Source: Mesorhizobium sp.
GTDB lineage: Bacteria; Pseudomonadota; Alphaproteobacteria; Rhizobiales; Rhizobiaceae
NCBI RefSeq assembly: GCF_017306545.1
Contig: NZ_JAFKID010000010.1
Location: 1 to 64,000 of the forward strand
Reading direction: 5' to 3'
DNA length: 64,000 bases
The position numbers were made by a program, and so were the translations under genes. The stretch's first letter is position 1; every line of letters begins with the position of its first letter. Under the pieces are notes generated by a model. That model was not told the DNA's origin, made no database searches, and worked only from the letters and a program-made list of their open reading frames with translations. Positions 1-6,415 of the stretch are shown here, piece after piece.

Positions 1-2
1 TT

Positions 3-122
3 GATTGTGACGACCCGCGACACACCGTCGTCATTCTCCAAACCCTTTTCGAGGATCGGGACGGCGGCATTGCACCTAAGCAGGCGCAAGCCGAAATCTT
101 GTCCATTACGGAGTTGAAGTAG
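3..122 (+). CDS. C-terminal end of an unknown protein, truncated by the window edge
   Basis: An open frame enters from the left edge and stops with TAG at 120-122, giving a 39-residue tail that ends in AEILSITELK. It is followed after 2 bp by the next ATG, so the two genes look translationally coupled. The tail matches nothing I recognise; the neighbour suggests a phage or integrative-element gene. The start is outside the window. Confidence 0.5.
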   Translation, partial: DCDDPRHTVVILQTLFEDRDGGIAPKQAQAEILSITELK

Positions 123-124
123 GT

Positions 125-556
125 ATGGCGAAGAACGGCGGCGCACGGCCGGGCGCAGGTAGGCCACGCGGCAGCGTCAGCCGTCGACATGTCGATCTTG
201 TCGCATCCATGATGGACGGCAGGAAGACGCCGCTCGAATACCTCATGGACGTGATGGCCGATGAGAACGCCGACGAAAAGCGCCGAGATTGGGCGGCCGA
301 CAAGGCGGCGGCATTCCTGCACCCCCGTCCCCAGCCCGTCGCCCGTACCGTAGAGATTGAGTTGCCGGATACCAGCACGGTCGATGGCATCACGGCAGCG
401 CTCAGCGCGATTACTAAGGCCGCAGCCAGCGGTCAGATAGCTCCTGCCGAGGCGCAATCGCTTTCAGCGCTCATAGAAGCCCAGCGGAAGGCTATCGAGA
501 CAGGCGAGCTTCTGGAGCGACTGGAGAAGCTGGAAGCGACTCAGGCGAAGCGGTAA
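125..556 (+). CDS. Small terminase subunit-like DNA-binding protein
   Basis: A 143-aa protein opening with GGARPGAGRPRGS, a basic Gly/Arg/Pro N-terminus seen in many phage small terminase subunits and related packaging or homing proteins. Residues ~30-70 form a short helical region (DEKRRDWAADKAAAFLHPRP), and residues ~110-140 are predicted coiled coil (ALIEAQRKAIETGELLERLEKLE). The start is the ATG two bases after the upstream stop. What is seen is the N-terminal motif and coil; the terminase role is inference, since such N-termini also occur on proteins outside packaging modules and no large terminase is visible. Confidence 0.55.
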   Translation: MAKNGGARPGAGRPRGSVSRRHVDLVASMMDGRKTPLEYLMDVMADENADEKRRDWAADKAAAFLHPRPQPVARTVEIELPDTSTVDGITAALSAITKAAASGQIAPAEAQSLSALIEAQRKAIETGELLERLEKLEATQAKR

Positions 557-568
557 GGGCGCGCGACC

Positions 569-754
569 ATGCAGAAGATGGCCAATAGACTGGAGCGGCT
601 GGAACGAGCCATGCAGGTCAGCAATGCTCCGATCACCGATGTTCGCAGGGCGACGGATGCCCAGCTAGAGGCCTTCTTGGCCTCGCTCGGAATCAACCCC
701 GGCGATGAGGCGGCGTTGATTGCCGTCGCAGAGGGCCGGGAAAGCCTAAAATAG
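569..754 (+). CDS. Small hypothetical protein with N-terminal coiled coil
   Basis: A 61-aa open frame starting 12 bp after the preceding gene on the same strand, beginning MQKMANRLERLERAM, a heptad-like helix, followed by an acidic half. Tight spacing and shared orientation favour a real accessory gene in the same operon. No family recognised. It could be a chance frame; there is no strong Shine-Dalgarno. Confidence 0.45.
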   Translation: MQKMANRLERLERAMQVSNAPITDVRRATDAQLEAFLASLGINPGDEAALIAVAEGRESLK

Positions 755-790
755 GACGGAATAGGGCGGCGGCAGGCGCCCCATTGAGCG

Positions 791-1291
791 CTACGAAGCG
801 TTCTTCAACAGCTTCGATAATATCGTTGCTATCCGCACAAACAGCAGGATCGAACAAGCCGCAAAAGCCACAAAGAGGATGGCGAACCATTTGGGCGCTA
901 TACCGTCAGCCAACGAAAAGAAACCGACGAAAGATATGACCAAAAACCCCAAGGCTCCCCACAGAGCCTCGTGCAGATAATTGAACAGCATGGCGGCGTA
1001 GCCGGTTGCCACGAGTTTTCTAAAAACAGCCGAGCCCGTAAGGCTCAGCACAATGGTTTCGGCGGTGATTATGAAGCCTACCAGTACGGACGCGACAGTC
1101 CCAGCCGCCGCCAGCATTGGCAAAGGATCAGAGGGAAACTTGCTCCCCCCTGTCAAATAGAGCCAACCGCACACGAACGCGACCGCGCCGACATAGGGCC
1201 ATGACCGTTCGAAATGAATTGGCTTGATCTTCAAACCGGCAACATCCCGGTTTCCCGCCAATTGACCAGTGCTTTGCGCAGCGCTTCCCAT
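791..1291 (-). CDS. Small four-helix membrane protein, second gene of an overlapping pair
   Basis: A 166-aa protein with four hydrophobic segments: around residues 33-47 (YVGAVAFVCGWLYLT), 60-82, 110-128 and 137-160. It probably lies in the inner membrane with short loops and no recognisable enzymatic motif. The listed ATG overlaps the 295-aa upstream gene by 61 bp. A TTG that overlaps that gene's TGA (encoding the residues before KIKPIHFERSW) is an alternative start giving a tighter coupling. The pair (soluble protein first, small four-helix membrane protein second, behind an XRE repressor) recalls lambda RexA/RexB by layout only; I see no sequence similarity to RexB. Confidence 0.6.
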   Translation of the reverse strand: MGSAAQSTGQLAGNRDVAGLKIKPIHFERSWPYVGAVAFVCGWLYLTGGSKFPSDPLPMLAAAGTVASVLVGFIITAETIVLSLTGSAVFRKLVATGYAAMLFNYLHEALWGALGFLVISFVGFFSLADGIAPKWFAILFVAFAACSILLFVRIATILSKLLKNAS

Positions 1292-2118
1292 CGATCCAAT
1301 CTATCATACCTCATGCCATTTCCCAACGTCAGGCGAACGTCGGTCGATATCCTTTCTGCTACCATATCGACTTCCTCTTGACGTGAATGGTCATCGACTT
1401 TGCCGGTAATGACAGCGGATTTTACGGCTGACCCAAGCTTTACGATATCGTCAGCTATTCCCCACACACCCTCAGGCGAAAGGTGACTGCCTTTTTTCGC
1501 GGTTGATTGTAGCTTGATCGTCATTGTTTCCACGCCTTTGGGGAGCGGTGCACTCAAAACGCTGCCCAAACTACGCCCCTCATCGAGATCCACAGCCAAC
1601 GCTCCAGGCACGCTCAATTCGACCTCAACGGCTCGAAAGATACCAAAGCGGCGCAGCCGTGCATAAGCCTCTGGCTTCAAAACAGCTCCTATCCCGAAAC
1701 CGAAGGCATCGGGGTTTTCTGGCTTTCTGCCATCCGGCATTCCGGCCGCTCTGTCGGCGGAAAATAAGTAGTCTCGAACACTCGCCATGCGCGGGCCAGC
1801 GTGGTTGTACTGGAATGCCATATAGCCGGTGGCTTCGTCCAATACGAAAGCTGTATCTTCTGCAAAGGAGTGCCCTGCTTCCATTGCTATGGCACTTACG
1901 GGGACGGCCGGAGCCATTTTGCCGGGGCCATGACCCAACCTTGGCGCGGCAAAATCGGCCATAATCAGGCCATCACGTTTTTCGAGGCTTTCCAGCCTCA
2001 TGTCGGCTGATCGCCCAGGAAACGTTCGGTTTTGAATTGGGCGAGCGGATAGCCAGTCCAGAAGTGCCGTGATGGAGCGCGGCCCGCGCTGAGCAATTTT
2101 GTATGCGTATACTTTCAT
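1231..2118 (-). CDS. Soluble hypothetical protein (DUF6731-like layout), first gene of the pair
   Basis: A 295-aa protein without membrane segments or signal peptide. The first 150 residues look strand-rich and carry ETAFVLDE-type and FQYNHAGPRM segments. That pattern resembles DUF6731/DUF4747-like proteins of phages and defence islands (weak, from memory). The C-terminal third is helical and charged. The start is supported by GGGAGGG four bases before the ATG. It overlaps the downstream membrane gene, so the products probably act together. Function unknown; a sensor of a membrane effector is a hypothesis based on arrangement. Confidence 0.6.
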   Translation of the reverse strand: MKVYAYKIAQRGPRSITALLDWLSARPIQNRTFPGRSADMRLESLEKRDGLIMADFAAPRLGHGPGKMAPAVPVSAIAMEAGHSFAEDTAFVLDEATGYMAFQYNHAGPRMASVRDYLFSADRAAGMPDGRKPENPDAFGFGIGAVLKPEAYARLRRFGIFRAVEVELSVPGALAVDLDEGRSLGSVLSAPLPKGVETMTIKLQSTAKKGSHLSPEGVWGIADDIVKLGSAVKSAVITGKVDDHSRQEEVDMVAERISTDVRLTLGNGMRYDRLDRWEALRKALVNWRETGMLPV

Positions 2119-2196
2119 GGTCCCTCCCGCCTCGAAACAATGTCACCGAGGGGCAGGAGTCAAGCTAAGAGCATCAGGCGTTCACTATGCTCCATA

Positions 2197-2218
2197 GGGT
2201 TTTGTCAGTTTTGTCAGT
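2197..2218 (+). repeat. Copy 1 of a 22-bp direct repeat (tandem TTTTGTCAG units)
   Basis: GGG followed by two head-to-tail TTTTGTCAG units, then T. The identical 22 bp recur in the same orientation at 6140-6161. The copies bracket about 3.9 kb carrying the repressor, the early operon and one membrane gene. This copy lies in the gap between the 219-aa and 295-aa genes. Role unknown: recombination site, integrase-arm site or shared regulatory sequence are possible. Confidence 0.7.
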
Positions 2219-2251
2219 ACCCCAAATGGCACTCATGCGAATTTTCTGACG

Positions 2252-2911
2252 CTAGAAAAGCGACCAAAGGCCAACGCCGGCCAATATCGTCAGCAAAGCT
2301 GTCATCGTCGCCACCACTAACCCCACAAGGGAGACATACACGGTAGATATAAGGCGAATAGCTGGCTTTGTTCCTGCGCGAGTACGGATGCGCCACTCGC
2401 GGATTGGGAAGGTTACCGGGCCGCCGAGAAATTCCAGATACCCAAGCGAAAGCAGACGAACGCGATATTTTACGAGGCCGGGCAATTCTCGCTTGTGCTT
2501 GATAGACCACCGCAATGCGTTCTGCAGAACGGCAACTGCACCTCCGCAAATGAAGAAGATAAGAACGACGGTCCAAGCGTGGCCAATACCCGAATCAATG
2601 GCCGCGTTTACAGGATGAGGAACCCCTTGCGTCCATAGCCATGCCGCATAGATGAGCATCGGCAGGCCGATACAGGCCAGAGCAATCACAAACAGGACGG
2701 CTCCCACGTCCTTCCAATCTTTGGCGTCACTGAACGCTTTGAGCGTCTCGCGGAGTAGATAAAGGGCCAGGGATATAAGGCCCCACAAGACCACGATGGC
2801 GATTGCGATCAACCCGAAGCCTTTCAGCCCGGTCACCATCGCATCCCGCCCAAATAGCAACACACCCGCAATAACTGCGAGTAGTAGGTTTGTCAGCCCG
2901 CGCCCTTCCAT
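2252..2911 (-). CDS. Multi-pass membrane protein of unknown function
   Basis: A 219-aa protein with at least five hydrophobic segments (about residues 7-22, 30-55, 68-92, 110-130 and 190-217) and a basic cytoplasmic-looking stretch around 133-150 (RWSIKHKRELPGLVKYRVR). No catalytic motif recognised. It is the first gene downstream of the XRE repressor on the same strand and probably shares its transcript. That is the place where temperate phages carry lysogenic conversion or exclusion genes, so a membrane-acting exclusion role is possible but unproven. Confidence 0.6.
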   Translation of the reverse strand: MEGRGLTNLLLAVIAGVLLFGRDAMVTGLKGFGLIAIAIVVLWGLISLALYLLRETLKAFSDAKDWKDVGAVLFVIALACIGLPMLIYAAWLWTQGVPHPVNAAIDSGIGHAWTVVLIFFICGGAVAVLQNALRWSIKHKRELPGLVKYRVRLLSLGYLEFLGGPVTFPIREWRIRTRAGTKPAIRLISTVYVSLVGLVVATMTALLTILAGVGLWSLF

Positions 2912-2987
2912 GCCGATACCCCGCCCCTCGCGGGGAGTATGGCATTTGCGCGCGACCGTTCAACCAGCAATCGCGCGCCATCCGCCC

Positions 2988-3245
2988 TCAATGACTGGTC
3001 GGATCGCGGAGAAGCCGAACGCCTGGATTTCCATGGTTGAGAAATTCCAATCCCATCGCCTCTAGCGTCCGCTGTACGGCCTGGACGTTCTGAGCCCGGC
3101 CGGCGATAGCGCCCGCACCGCTCGCTTCCATATTCCGAATTGTGTTGACGTTGACCGACGCCCGTTCGGCCAAGTCCTTTTGTTCGATGCCGATAAGCGC
3201 CCTTGCGGCCTTAAGCTGGTTCCCCGTCGTCAACATTCGATGCAC
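2988..3245 (-). CDS. XRE-family (Cro/CI-like) helix-turn-helix repressor
   Basis: An 85-aa protein with one HTH_3 domain over residues ~6-60: QLKAARALIGIEQKDLAERA, then SVNVNTIRNME as recognition region. It is short, with no dimerisation or cleavage domain, like a Cro-type or short prophage repressor. It is divergent from the early operon starting at 3331. The 85-bp intergenic region carries a TTGACA promoter and small palindromes, the usual layout of a lysogeny switch. It probably represses the rightward promoter and its own. Confidence 0.85.
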   Translation of the reverse strand: MHRMLTTGNQLKAARALIGIEQKDLAERASVNVNTIRNMEASGAGAIAGRAQNVQAVQRTLEAMGLEFLNHGNPGVRLLRDPTSH

Positions 3246-3263
3246 TCTCCATCATTCAATAAA

Positions 3264-3314
3264 TAGGTATCAGACCTAAATTACTGTTGACAAGCGCCAA
3301 TCCACGTATATGGT
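3264..3314 (+). promoter_or_regulatory. Divergent control region: rightward promoter and candidate operators
   Basis: A -35 box TTGACA (3287-3292) and a -10-like TATGGT (3309-3314) are 16 bp apart and point at the gene starting at 3331. Between it and the repressor gene is an inverted repeat TAGGT-N5-ACCTA (3264-3278). GGTTACC (3312-3318) and GGTAACC (3339-3345) are further GGTNACC copies overlapping the -10 and the start region. These are candidate repressor operators; binding is inferred. Confidence 0.55.
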
Positions 3315-3330
3315 TACCAACACTAGATGA

Positions 3331-3609
3331 ATGGCGATGGTAACCATGATTTTCAACCGCTCGGAAATTATGAACGAAGCTCACCGCTATGCCCGCGCCT
3401 ATGCCGGCCGCGAGTGGTCCTATGCCAAGCTGCTGTCGTGGGGCCTCAGGGCAGCATGGAAGGAGGCCAAGGAAGGCAAGACGGCAGCCCAGCGTAGGGC
3501 GGAAGCCATCAGGGCCGAAATCGACGCCCTGCAATACAAAACGCTTCGTTACGACACGGTGACGATGCGCCGCCGTCTCGAAAACGAACTGGCCGCGCTG
3601 GCGGCCTGA
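3331..3609 (+). CDS. Small basic hypothetical protein, first gene of the early operon
   Basis: A 92-aa protein. Residues from MIFNRSEIMNEAHRYARAY onward recall a short-protein family common in rhizobial prophage-like segments, with FNRSEIM near the N-terminus, a Trp-rich middle and a charged helical C-terminus. ATGs at 3331, 3337 and 3346 are in frame; the last places FNRSEIM directly at the N-terminus and may be the true start. The leader from the predicted promoter is only about 10 nt and shows no Shine-Dalgarno. Function unknown. Confidence 0.6.
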   Translation: MAMVTMIFNRSEIMNEAHRYARAYAGREWSYAKLLSWGLRAAWKEAKEGKTAAQRRAEAIRAEIDALQYKTLRYDTVTMRRRLENELAALAA

Positions 3610-3640
3610 TACCCTTCACAGACCACAGGAGAACATCACC

Positions 3641-4543
3641 ATGACGAACGACGCCACGCGGGCGGACGCCGAAGTTCTGCCCGAAATCAACCGCCGGAAG
3701 ATGATGCTCGGCTTTGCCGCTTCGAGCGCGGCTATGGCCGCCATCGCTGCGGCCACGTCGGAAGCGCGATCTACAGCAATCTACGAGGAGGTCAACGAAA
3801 ACCCCGAACTGATCGAAGCGTTCAGGGATCTGCGCGCCGCAGAGAACGAATATTACGCCTCCAAGGATGACCTTGGTTGGCTGGCCGACGAATGGAAACA
3901 CCTTTGGCCACTCGCCCCGGAGGAAATCCTCGGTGCGGCCAACGCCCATCGTCACGGCTCTTATAGTGACGATATCGAGCGGGACATCATCGGTCGCCCC
4001 ATGATGCGCGATACGTCCGTCCTGACTAAGCGGCTGGCCAAGGAATTCCGCCAGGAAAACCGCGAGACCGCCTTCTTCATCGACCAGCCGGATGAACTCG
4101 CCGAACGCATCAAGGAATTCCGCAAGAGCAAACCAAAGGGAAGGACGCCAAAGTCTCTGGAGCGAAACCGCAAGTGGCTCGAAAGCACGATAGCCCACAT
4201 GGAAAATCGTCTTCGTCTGGCCATCGAATATCATTCCGAGACGAAGCGCATTCGCGCCTTGGCGGGCGTCGATGCGGCGAAGCAGCGGATAAAGACCGCC
4301 GAAGATCAGTTCGACGCGGCAGCCGTTGCCTTTTCCAAGATCCCTTCGCGAACGCTGGTGGGGCTGCGCCTCAAGGCCGACGCGTTGCTTAGCACTCTTG
4401 AAAGGTGGAGATTCCCGCGCAGCGACGTTTTCATTTTCGGCGCAGTCTGGCGTTTGGTCGAAGACACCCTCGTCGCCACGCAGAACCTGGATGGCAAGCG
4501 TAAGGCCGCGCCGCTGCCTGCTTTGGAAGGCAGCGCAGTATGA
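3641..4543 (+). CDS. Hypothetical protein with Tat-like N-terminus and helical body
   Basis: A 300-aa protein. Residues 16-42 hold NRRKMMLGFAASSAAMAAIA and then an A-x-S-E-A-like site, resembling a twin-arginine signal (R18, R19), but lacking the full S-R-R-x-F-L-K consensus. The rest is charged and helical, with a probable coiled coil at ~185-235 (SLERNRKWLESTIAHMENRL) and no enzyme motif. AGGAG precedes the ATG. Its stop overlaps the next start (ATGA). Export is uncertain: the other operon products look cytoplasmic, so the hydrophobic segment may be a membrane anchor. Confidence 0.6.
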   Translation: MTNDATRADAEVLPEINRRKMMLGFAASSAAMAAIAAATSEARSTAIYEEVNENPELIEAFRDLRAAENEYYASKDDLGWLADEWKHLWPLAPEEILGAANAHRHGSYSDDIERDIIGRPMMRDTSVLTKRLAKEFRQENRETAFFIDQPDELAERIKEFRKSKPKGRTPKSLERNRKWLESTIAHMENRLRLAIEYHSETKRIRALAGVDAAKQRIKTAEDQFDAAAVAFSKIPSRTLVGLRLKADALLSTLERWRFPRSDVFIFGAVWRLVEDTLVATQNLDGKRKAAPLPALEGSAV

Positions 4544-5494: not shown

Positions 5495-5992
5495 ATGGTG
5501 ACCATGAGCGTTTGGCACGTTGAGCAAAATCCCAAGCTCATAGAGGAACTCGGGCGCGTCACCGTCAGATGGGCCGCTCTCGACCTTCTATTGGTTCGAA
5601 TAGCGTCCATCGCCCTCAAGAACCATCCGGCCGCGCAAAGTGTCATCTTTGGTGAAAGCAACGCCGGTCAAGCGCGCTTCCGGGCCTTTGAACGGATAAT
5701 CGGAGCCTCATTCTTCGATGAAGATGAGCGATCCGAAATCATCGCCCATATGAAGGAGCTATCTCGACACTATCGAGCGAGGAACGCCCTAACTCACGAA
5801 CCTCTAGAAGGAACATACAGCATTGAGGGCAAGCGCTTCAAATTTCGCCTGCAATTTGTAGCCAGGGGCGGGGGAAAGAAGGACGCGGCCCTGGAGGATA
5901 TCCAAAAGCATGTGCACTCAGTAGACGAGCATCTAGAGGCGCTAGAAGCTATCTTGGATCGATTGTTTGAGAGGTACGAGCAAGTGGAATAG
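5495..5992 (+). CDS. HEPN-like protein with R-N-x3-H motif
   Basis: A 165-aa all-helical protein, last gene of the early operon. Residues 96-101 read RNALTH. In HEPN-domain RNases and toxins a conserved R-x4-6-H motif, often with N, D or H right after the Arg, forms the active site, and this match has the favoured Asn. Preceding helices (LGRVTVRWAALDLLLVRIAS) resemble the first helix of HEPN-like families. No MNT-type nucleotidyltransferase partner is adjacent. It could be an RNase effector or a catalytically silent HEPN scaffold. Confidence 0.55.
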   Translation: MVTMSVWHVEQNPKLIEELGRVTVRWAALDLLLVRIASIALKNHPAAQSVIFGESNAGQARFRAFERIIGASFFDEDERSEIIAHMKELSRHYRARNALTHEPLEGTYSIEGKRFKFRLQFVARGGGKKDAALEDIQKHVHSVDEHLEALEAILDRLFERYEQVE

Positions 5993-6068
5993 GCGTAGGC
6001 GGAATTTCGCGTCGGAGCGAGCTATCCCCAGCCTGTATTTTTGTCATGCACCCATAGGCAGGCGAGAG

Positions 6069-6139: not shown

Positions 6140-6161
6140 GGGTTTTGTCAGTTTTGTCAGT
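6140..6161 (+). repeat. Copy 2 of the 22-bp direct repeat
   Basis: Identical over 22 bp and in the same orientation as 2197-2218 (GGG plus two TTTTGTCAG units). It lies between the operon terminator and the 3' end of tRNA-Ala, in the gene-free stretch 6094-6339. Position next to a tRNA 3' end would suit an integration-related site, but the tRNA sequence itself is not duplicated inside the window. Confidence 0.7.

Positions 6162-6339: not shown

Positions 6340-6415
<76 letters not shown>

Follow-up and report, generated by a model that had tools for sequence, protein, structure and literature searches.

Two adjacent minus-strand genes of a Mesorhizobium sp., here termed A and B, probably form a two-gene system for phage exclusion that is of the RexAB type, though divergent, and is borne by a prophage-like element. 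They lie close to the start of the window, the 64,000 nucleotide stretch of DNA that was analyzed. Four computed features carry this reading: the recurrent pairing of A with B, their coupled start, a predicted RexA-like fold of A and a weak, near-full-length profile match of B to RexB.

Organization of the gene cluster

Four minus-strand open reading frames of 85, 219, 295 and 166 aa were present where the preliminary description had placed them. The upstream-most gene encodes an XRE-type helix-turn-helix (HTH) regulator of 85 aa (2988..3245), followed after 76 bp by a multi-helix membrane protein of 219 aa (2252..2911) and after a further 133 bp by gene A (P0002, 1231..2118), whose 295 aa product is DUF6731-like with a predicted RexA fold. 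Gene B (P0001) follows directly and codes for a RexB-like small membrane protein, placed at 791..1234 (147 aa from TTG 1234) on the basis of start position, hydropathy and profile match. As the longest open reading frame it spans 791-1291, which would yield 166 aa if ATG 1291 were the start. The stop codon of A and the start codon of B share the four bases TTGA at 1231..1234, and an equivalent NTGA overlap holds the exact start codon of B in 11 of the 15 loci examined. For the remaining four (L006, L016, L017, L019), the start of B is placed 1 to 22 nt past the last base of the A stop. Judged from the sequence, B therefore probably begins at TTG 1234, comprises 147 aa and overlaps the A stop by 4 nt. 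The overlap and the 166 aa reading frame described previously thus exist, while the 61 nt extent and the greater length appear to stem from a mis-called start. The hydrophobic character of B likewise stood, whereas its four helices are a hydropathy-based count that ranged from 3 to 5 hydrophobic windows with the cut-off. The best PHROG match of B was phrog_17119 (function unknown, E 3.3e-4), and B belongs to no named family.

All HTH matches of the regulator were weak: Pfam HTH_3 (E 7e-4) and the best NCBIfam model, a HipB/Y4mF-type antitoxin (6.3e-7), remained below their cut-offs, and the best PADLOC match was a control-protein model (1.4e-6). The earlier XRE assignment is consistent with these matches, its role as a repressor is presumptive and its tie to the A-B pair is putative. 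The 219 aa protein displayed six hydrophobic windows and matched no convincing family in Pfam, PHROG, PADLOC or NCBIfam. Among 61 same-genus genomes it was detected in its own genome and in none of the other 60; it is a candidate member of the A-B system. In a scan of positions 1-4000, the minus strand showed just one promoter-like site, which falls within gene A (1332-1303); the region upstream of the cluster had none on this strand, so that joint transcription of the pair with the regulator is hypothetical. On the plus strand, a promoter-like site (TTGACA, 16 nt, TATGGT) was seen at 3287-3314 between the regulator gene and a divergent 92 aa open reading frame (3331-3609), an immunity-switch-like layout.

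A and B are conserved as neighbors

Loci containing A were gathered by single-protein searches and then with growing profiles, resulting in 19 non-redundant loci: the window, Rhodobacterales bacterium BW5 (L004; open reading frames identical to L003, counted once), the IMG/VR loci L005-L012 and L017-L020, L013 (the same site as L024), L025-L027 and a Niallia plasmid (L016). This number overstates their independence, as L017 barely differs from L019 and L006 is closely similar to L007. Directly 3' of A, on the same strand, an intact hydrophobic B-type open reading frame was found in 18 of the 19 loci. The exception, L007, carries downstream of A a 126 aa open reading frame with the conserved part of B; by eye, B appeared to be split over two frames there (2667-3092), due to either a sequencing error or a broken copy. 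A reverse search with three B proteins recovered six loci, four on already known contigs and two new ones (L038 and L040), and A was present in five of the six, including L038. The genes are therefore conserved as neighbors when approached from either side, and neither of the two findings named beforehand as speaking against a RexAB-like reading, absence of such conservation or membership in an unrelated housekeeping family, was obtained: no housekeeping family was matched by the pair among the Pfam, PHROG, PADLOC and NCBIfam models. Chance adjacency of A and B was ruled out, as A homologs detectable solely by profile keep a B-type neighbor.

No A was detectable in L040. By eye, the B homolog lies downstream of an apparently full-length CI-type repressor gene in the region 20-3411 of this locus, and a ClpP/SppA-like gene and two membrane-protein genes are also located upstream of it. 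Here, B is perhaps the membrane partner of another two- or three-part system.

A is predicted to adopt a RexA-like fold

The sole Pfam match of window A was PF20505 (DUF6731), at an E-value of 7.6e-4 and 19.5 bits, below the curated cut-off of 27. PF20505 was matched by 11 of 11 aligned A members at E <= 1 (best 3e-24), and since the homologs L011, L012 and L013 exceed the curated cut-off, window A is likely distantly akin to DUF6731. A structure model of A was built from a 14-sequence alignment and replaced an earlier 5-sequence model (pLDDT 63). In structure comparison, the top PDB match of the model was lambda RexA, in line with the parallel drawn in the preliminary description and as expected for the soluble component of a RexAB-type system. 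RdgC came next in Foldseek, followed by kinetochore proteins of a kind reported as relatives of RexA and RdgC (PMC11077077). The model consists of a split globular domain (residues ~1-157 and ~253-290) interrupted by an inserted domain (~160-251), which agrees with the published layout of RexA, where the inserted domain forms the dimer (PMC11077077). Whole-chain superposition on RexA was poor (TM 0.34), and VIA aligned 147 of the 295 residues. Searches of solved structures by sequence gave nothing convincing and did not recover RexA. All 14 aligned sequences share the Y, N, H and G of the Y-N-H-x-G motif of A. The pI of A homologs ranges from 4.5 to 9.2, with window A at 8.7; many are acidic, which does not favor DNA binding. 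The kinship of the DUF6731-like A family with the RexA fold, as suggested by the model, appears to be new within the searches made.

B shows weak profile similarity to RexB

The order of a soluble followed by a membrane protein and the protein sizes (295/147 aa versus 279/144 aa) resemble lambda, as had been stated before. To this similarity are added the predicted fold of A and a weak profile match of B. Profiles of 19 A and 18 B sequences were compared with a yardstick of four RexA and four RexB sequences. B matched the RexB profile with a P-value of 8.9e-5 (probability 59.6%), positions 12-144 aligning to 12-136, so that the protein directly downstream of A in 18 of 19 loci qualifies as a RexB-type membrane partner. 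The A profile was collinear with RexA, yet weakly so (P 0.0039, probability 8.7%). In 100 column shuffles each, the minimum P was 0.012 for B-RexB and 0.02 for A-RexA; reversed alignments gave 0.051 and 0.11 for B and 0.19 and 0.22 for A, and crossing the families gave 0.64 for A-RexB and 0.62 for B-RexA. In subsets of six sequences, B-RexB yielded P 0.00081 and 0.0061, whereas the A-RexA signal was lost (0.5 and 0.59); early A-RexA profile comparisons were also not significant (0.41 and 0.22). HMMER returned no A-RexA signal; with scaling to 177,635 sequences, its best E-values for B against RexB lay between 0.014 and 0.018.

At the level of single proteins, BLASTP of the window proteins against lambda-type RexA and RexB gave no significant match. 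Neither window A nor window B matched Pfam RexA (PF15969) or RexB (PF15968) at E <= 1, models that lambda RexA and RexB do match, nor the PADLOC RexA and RexB models at E <= 1. The PADLOC RexB model matched B of L018 (6.1e-5), L020 (2e-4) and L025 (2.2e-4), more weakly B of L026 (0.019) and L017 (0.03), and also one of the 11 B relatives that were compared with the PDC-M67B model (0.0046). The earlier statement that no sequence similarity to Rex is visible holds for the window proteins against single sequences and Rex family models and gives way at the B-RexB profile match. Besides lacking matches to the Rex family models, the window pair differs from lambda in having a coupled start, where rexA and rexB are separated by 15 nt, and in a small regulator that is located two genes away from the pair.

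Genomic context and distribution

Prophage association is suggested by the surroundings of the window pair. A window protein at 125-556 has weak terminase-small-subunit similarity (E 2.7e-5), which fits a prophage remnant, and as the window starts at base 1 of its contig (C64), the element is visible only in part. A tRNA-Ala (GGC) is located at 6340-6415. The G+C content is ~57% before position 6000 and 64-67% beyond, which would fit an inserted element bordered by the tRNA. An exact 22 nt repeat, GGGTTTTGTCAGTTTTGTCAGT, occurs at 2197-2218 and 6140-6161; one more copy in the genome, with one mismatch, lies at C26:10701 (L031), by eye just past the end of a tyrosine-integrase-like open reading frame. 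The same element encodes a 165 aa protein (5495-5992) with a sub-threshold HEPN match (PF18730, E 0.045).

The contexts of the other copies are examples from individual loci rather than a systematic scan. A regulator upstream on the same strand is shared by the window, L018 and L020 (PHROG repressor models) and L038 (XRE-like by eye), and many other loci have no such neighbor. Several pairs are found among structural genes, adjoining terminase subunits in L005, antisense and adjoining the major head protein gene in L006, after the terminase large subunit in L009, after a scaffold protein in L010 and before the tape measure in L011; in L012 the pair is near a spanin gene. On the Niallia plasmid (L016 2345-5323), genes for a DUF6710 protein, a DUF6731 protein and a membrane protein directly precede type I restriction-modification genes.

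Both genes were rare. Of 297 genomes of the same family, one, its own, contained window A; window B was present in 2 of 297 genomes of the order, and the A profile detected 2 of 299 and 5 of 398 genomes of the phylum, own included. PF20505 gave no hit in 385 genomes of the class, where the gene of the window itself also escaped detection. In 50,697 records of named phages, no match was obtained for window A at E <= 1 or for A of L006, L012 and Niallia at E <= 1e-3. In 72,556 plasmid records there was none for window A, one for L012 A over 36% of its length, and for Niallia A its own record only. IMG/VR gave no match with single window proteins or with a two-sequence B alignment.

Proposed mechanism and comparison with other systems

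RexA is described as a dimeric non-specific DNA binder and RexB as a protein that resides in the membrane and, once activated, damages it, infection being aborted via growth arrest or death (PMC12894663; PMC11077077). By analogy, A would dimerize and bind DNA as RexA does, and it may sense infection, perhaps via replication or recombination intermediates. Once activated, A would trigger B, putatively an oligomeric inner-membrane protein; permeabilization of the membrane by B would halt growth and abort the infection. In PMC12894663, no RexA-RexB binding was detected by two-hybrid test, leaving the triggering step open for that system too. For RexABpp of Pseudomonas putida (PP_5643/PP_5644), defence has been demonstrated (PMC12894663), whereas exclusion by the window pair is proposed from its likeness to Rex.

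The roles of the two proteins might be reversed, with A acting as a cytosolic growth-inhibiting effector that B anchors and silences until infection. Such an arrangement was reported for Butters gp30/gp31 (PMC12894663; PMC7542560), and the tight stop/start coupling of A and B would fit stoichiometry control. Like the window pair, Butters gp30/gp31 and CarolAnn gp44/gp43 consist of a gene for a soluble protein that overlaps slightly with the membrane-protein gene downstream, but their proteins are larger (403/187 and 370/178 aa). The A and B profiles had no similarity to either pair, whereas B resembles RexB, and reversed roles are therefore considered unlikely. Lambda-type RexA and RexB profiles did not clearly recognize the CarolAnn and Butters proteins either (P 0.026 to 0.62), a single-sequence yardstick that is itself weak. 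CarolAnn and Sbash are treated in further papers (PMC6426606, PMC6426596).

RexA can bias the lambda switch without need of RexB (PMC11077077), and RdgC is among the structural matches of the A model, so A could mainly modulate the lysogeny switch or recombination in the manner of RexA/RdgC, with B secondary and exclusion not the selected function. However, several copies of the pair sit among structural genes, remote from a repressor, and B stays adjacent to A in distant loci, which makes this reading quite improbable. That the pair is a phage accessory with another job, e.g. blocking DNA entry or timing lysis, is very improbable: a common fold is no proof of function and B once occurs without A (L040), but a RexA-type fold, a RexB-like partner and coupling co-occur.

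The idea of such a system was partly anticipated, since a computationally derived candidate close to the A-B family is already on record. Of the PADLOC candidate PDC-M67, model PDC-M67A matches 6 of 11 A relatives and PDC-M67B one of 11 B relatives (L012), all short and weak, whereas neither matches window A or B at E <= 1. No paper naming DUF6731 or PDC-M67 was found in a literature search that covered main texts and few preprints. The type of system is already known, and the link of the A-B family to the RexA fold appears to be the new part.

A divergent RexAB-type identity of A and B would suggest a role, open to testing, for DUF6731, which so far has no assigned function. Rex exclusion by lambda has been known for ~70 years and its trigger is still unknown; a diverged family keeping the predicted RexA fold and a RexB-like partner would highlight conserved residues such as the Y-N-H-x-G of A. 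We lean slightly towards the view that DUF6731 with a small membrane partner represents a broad, as yet unnamed line within RexAB-type immunity. Its members would occur in phages, on plasmids and in chromosomes, in Pseudomonadota and Bacillota at the least, some linked to a regulator in prophages and others forming cassettes between phage structural genes. If so, Rex exclusion would be a wide defence class beyond the five Rex-type systems described by a 2026 count (PMC12894663).
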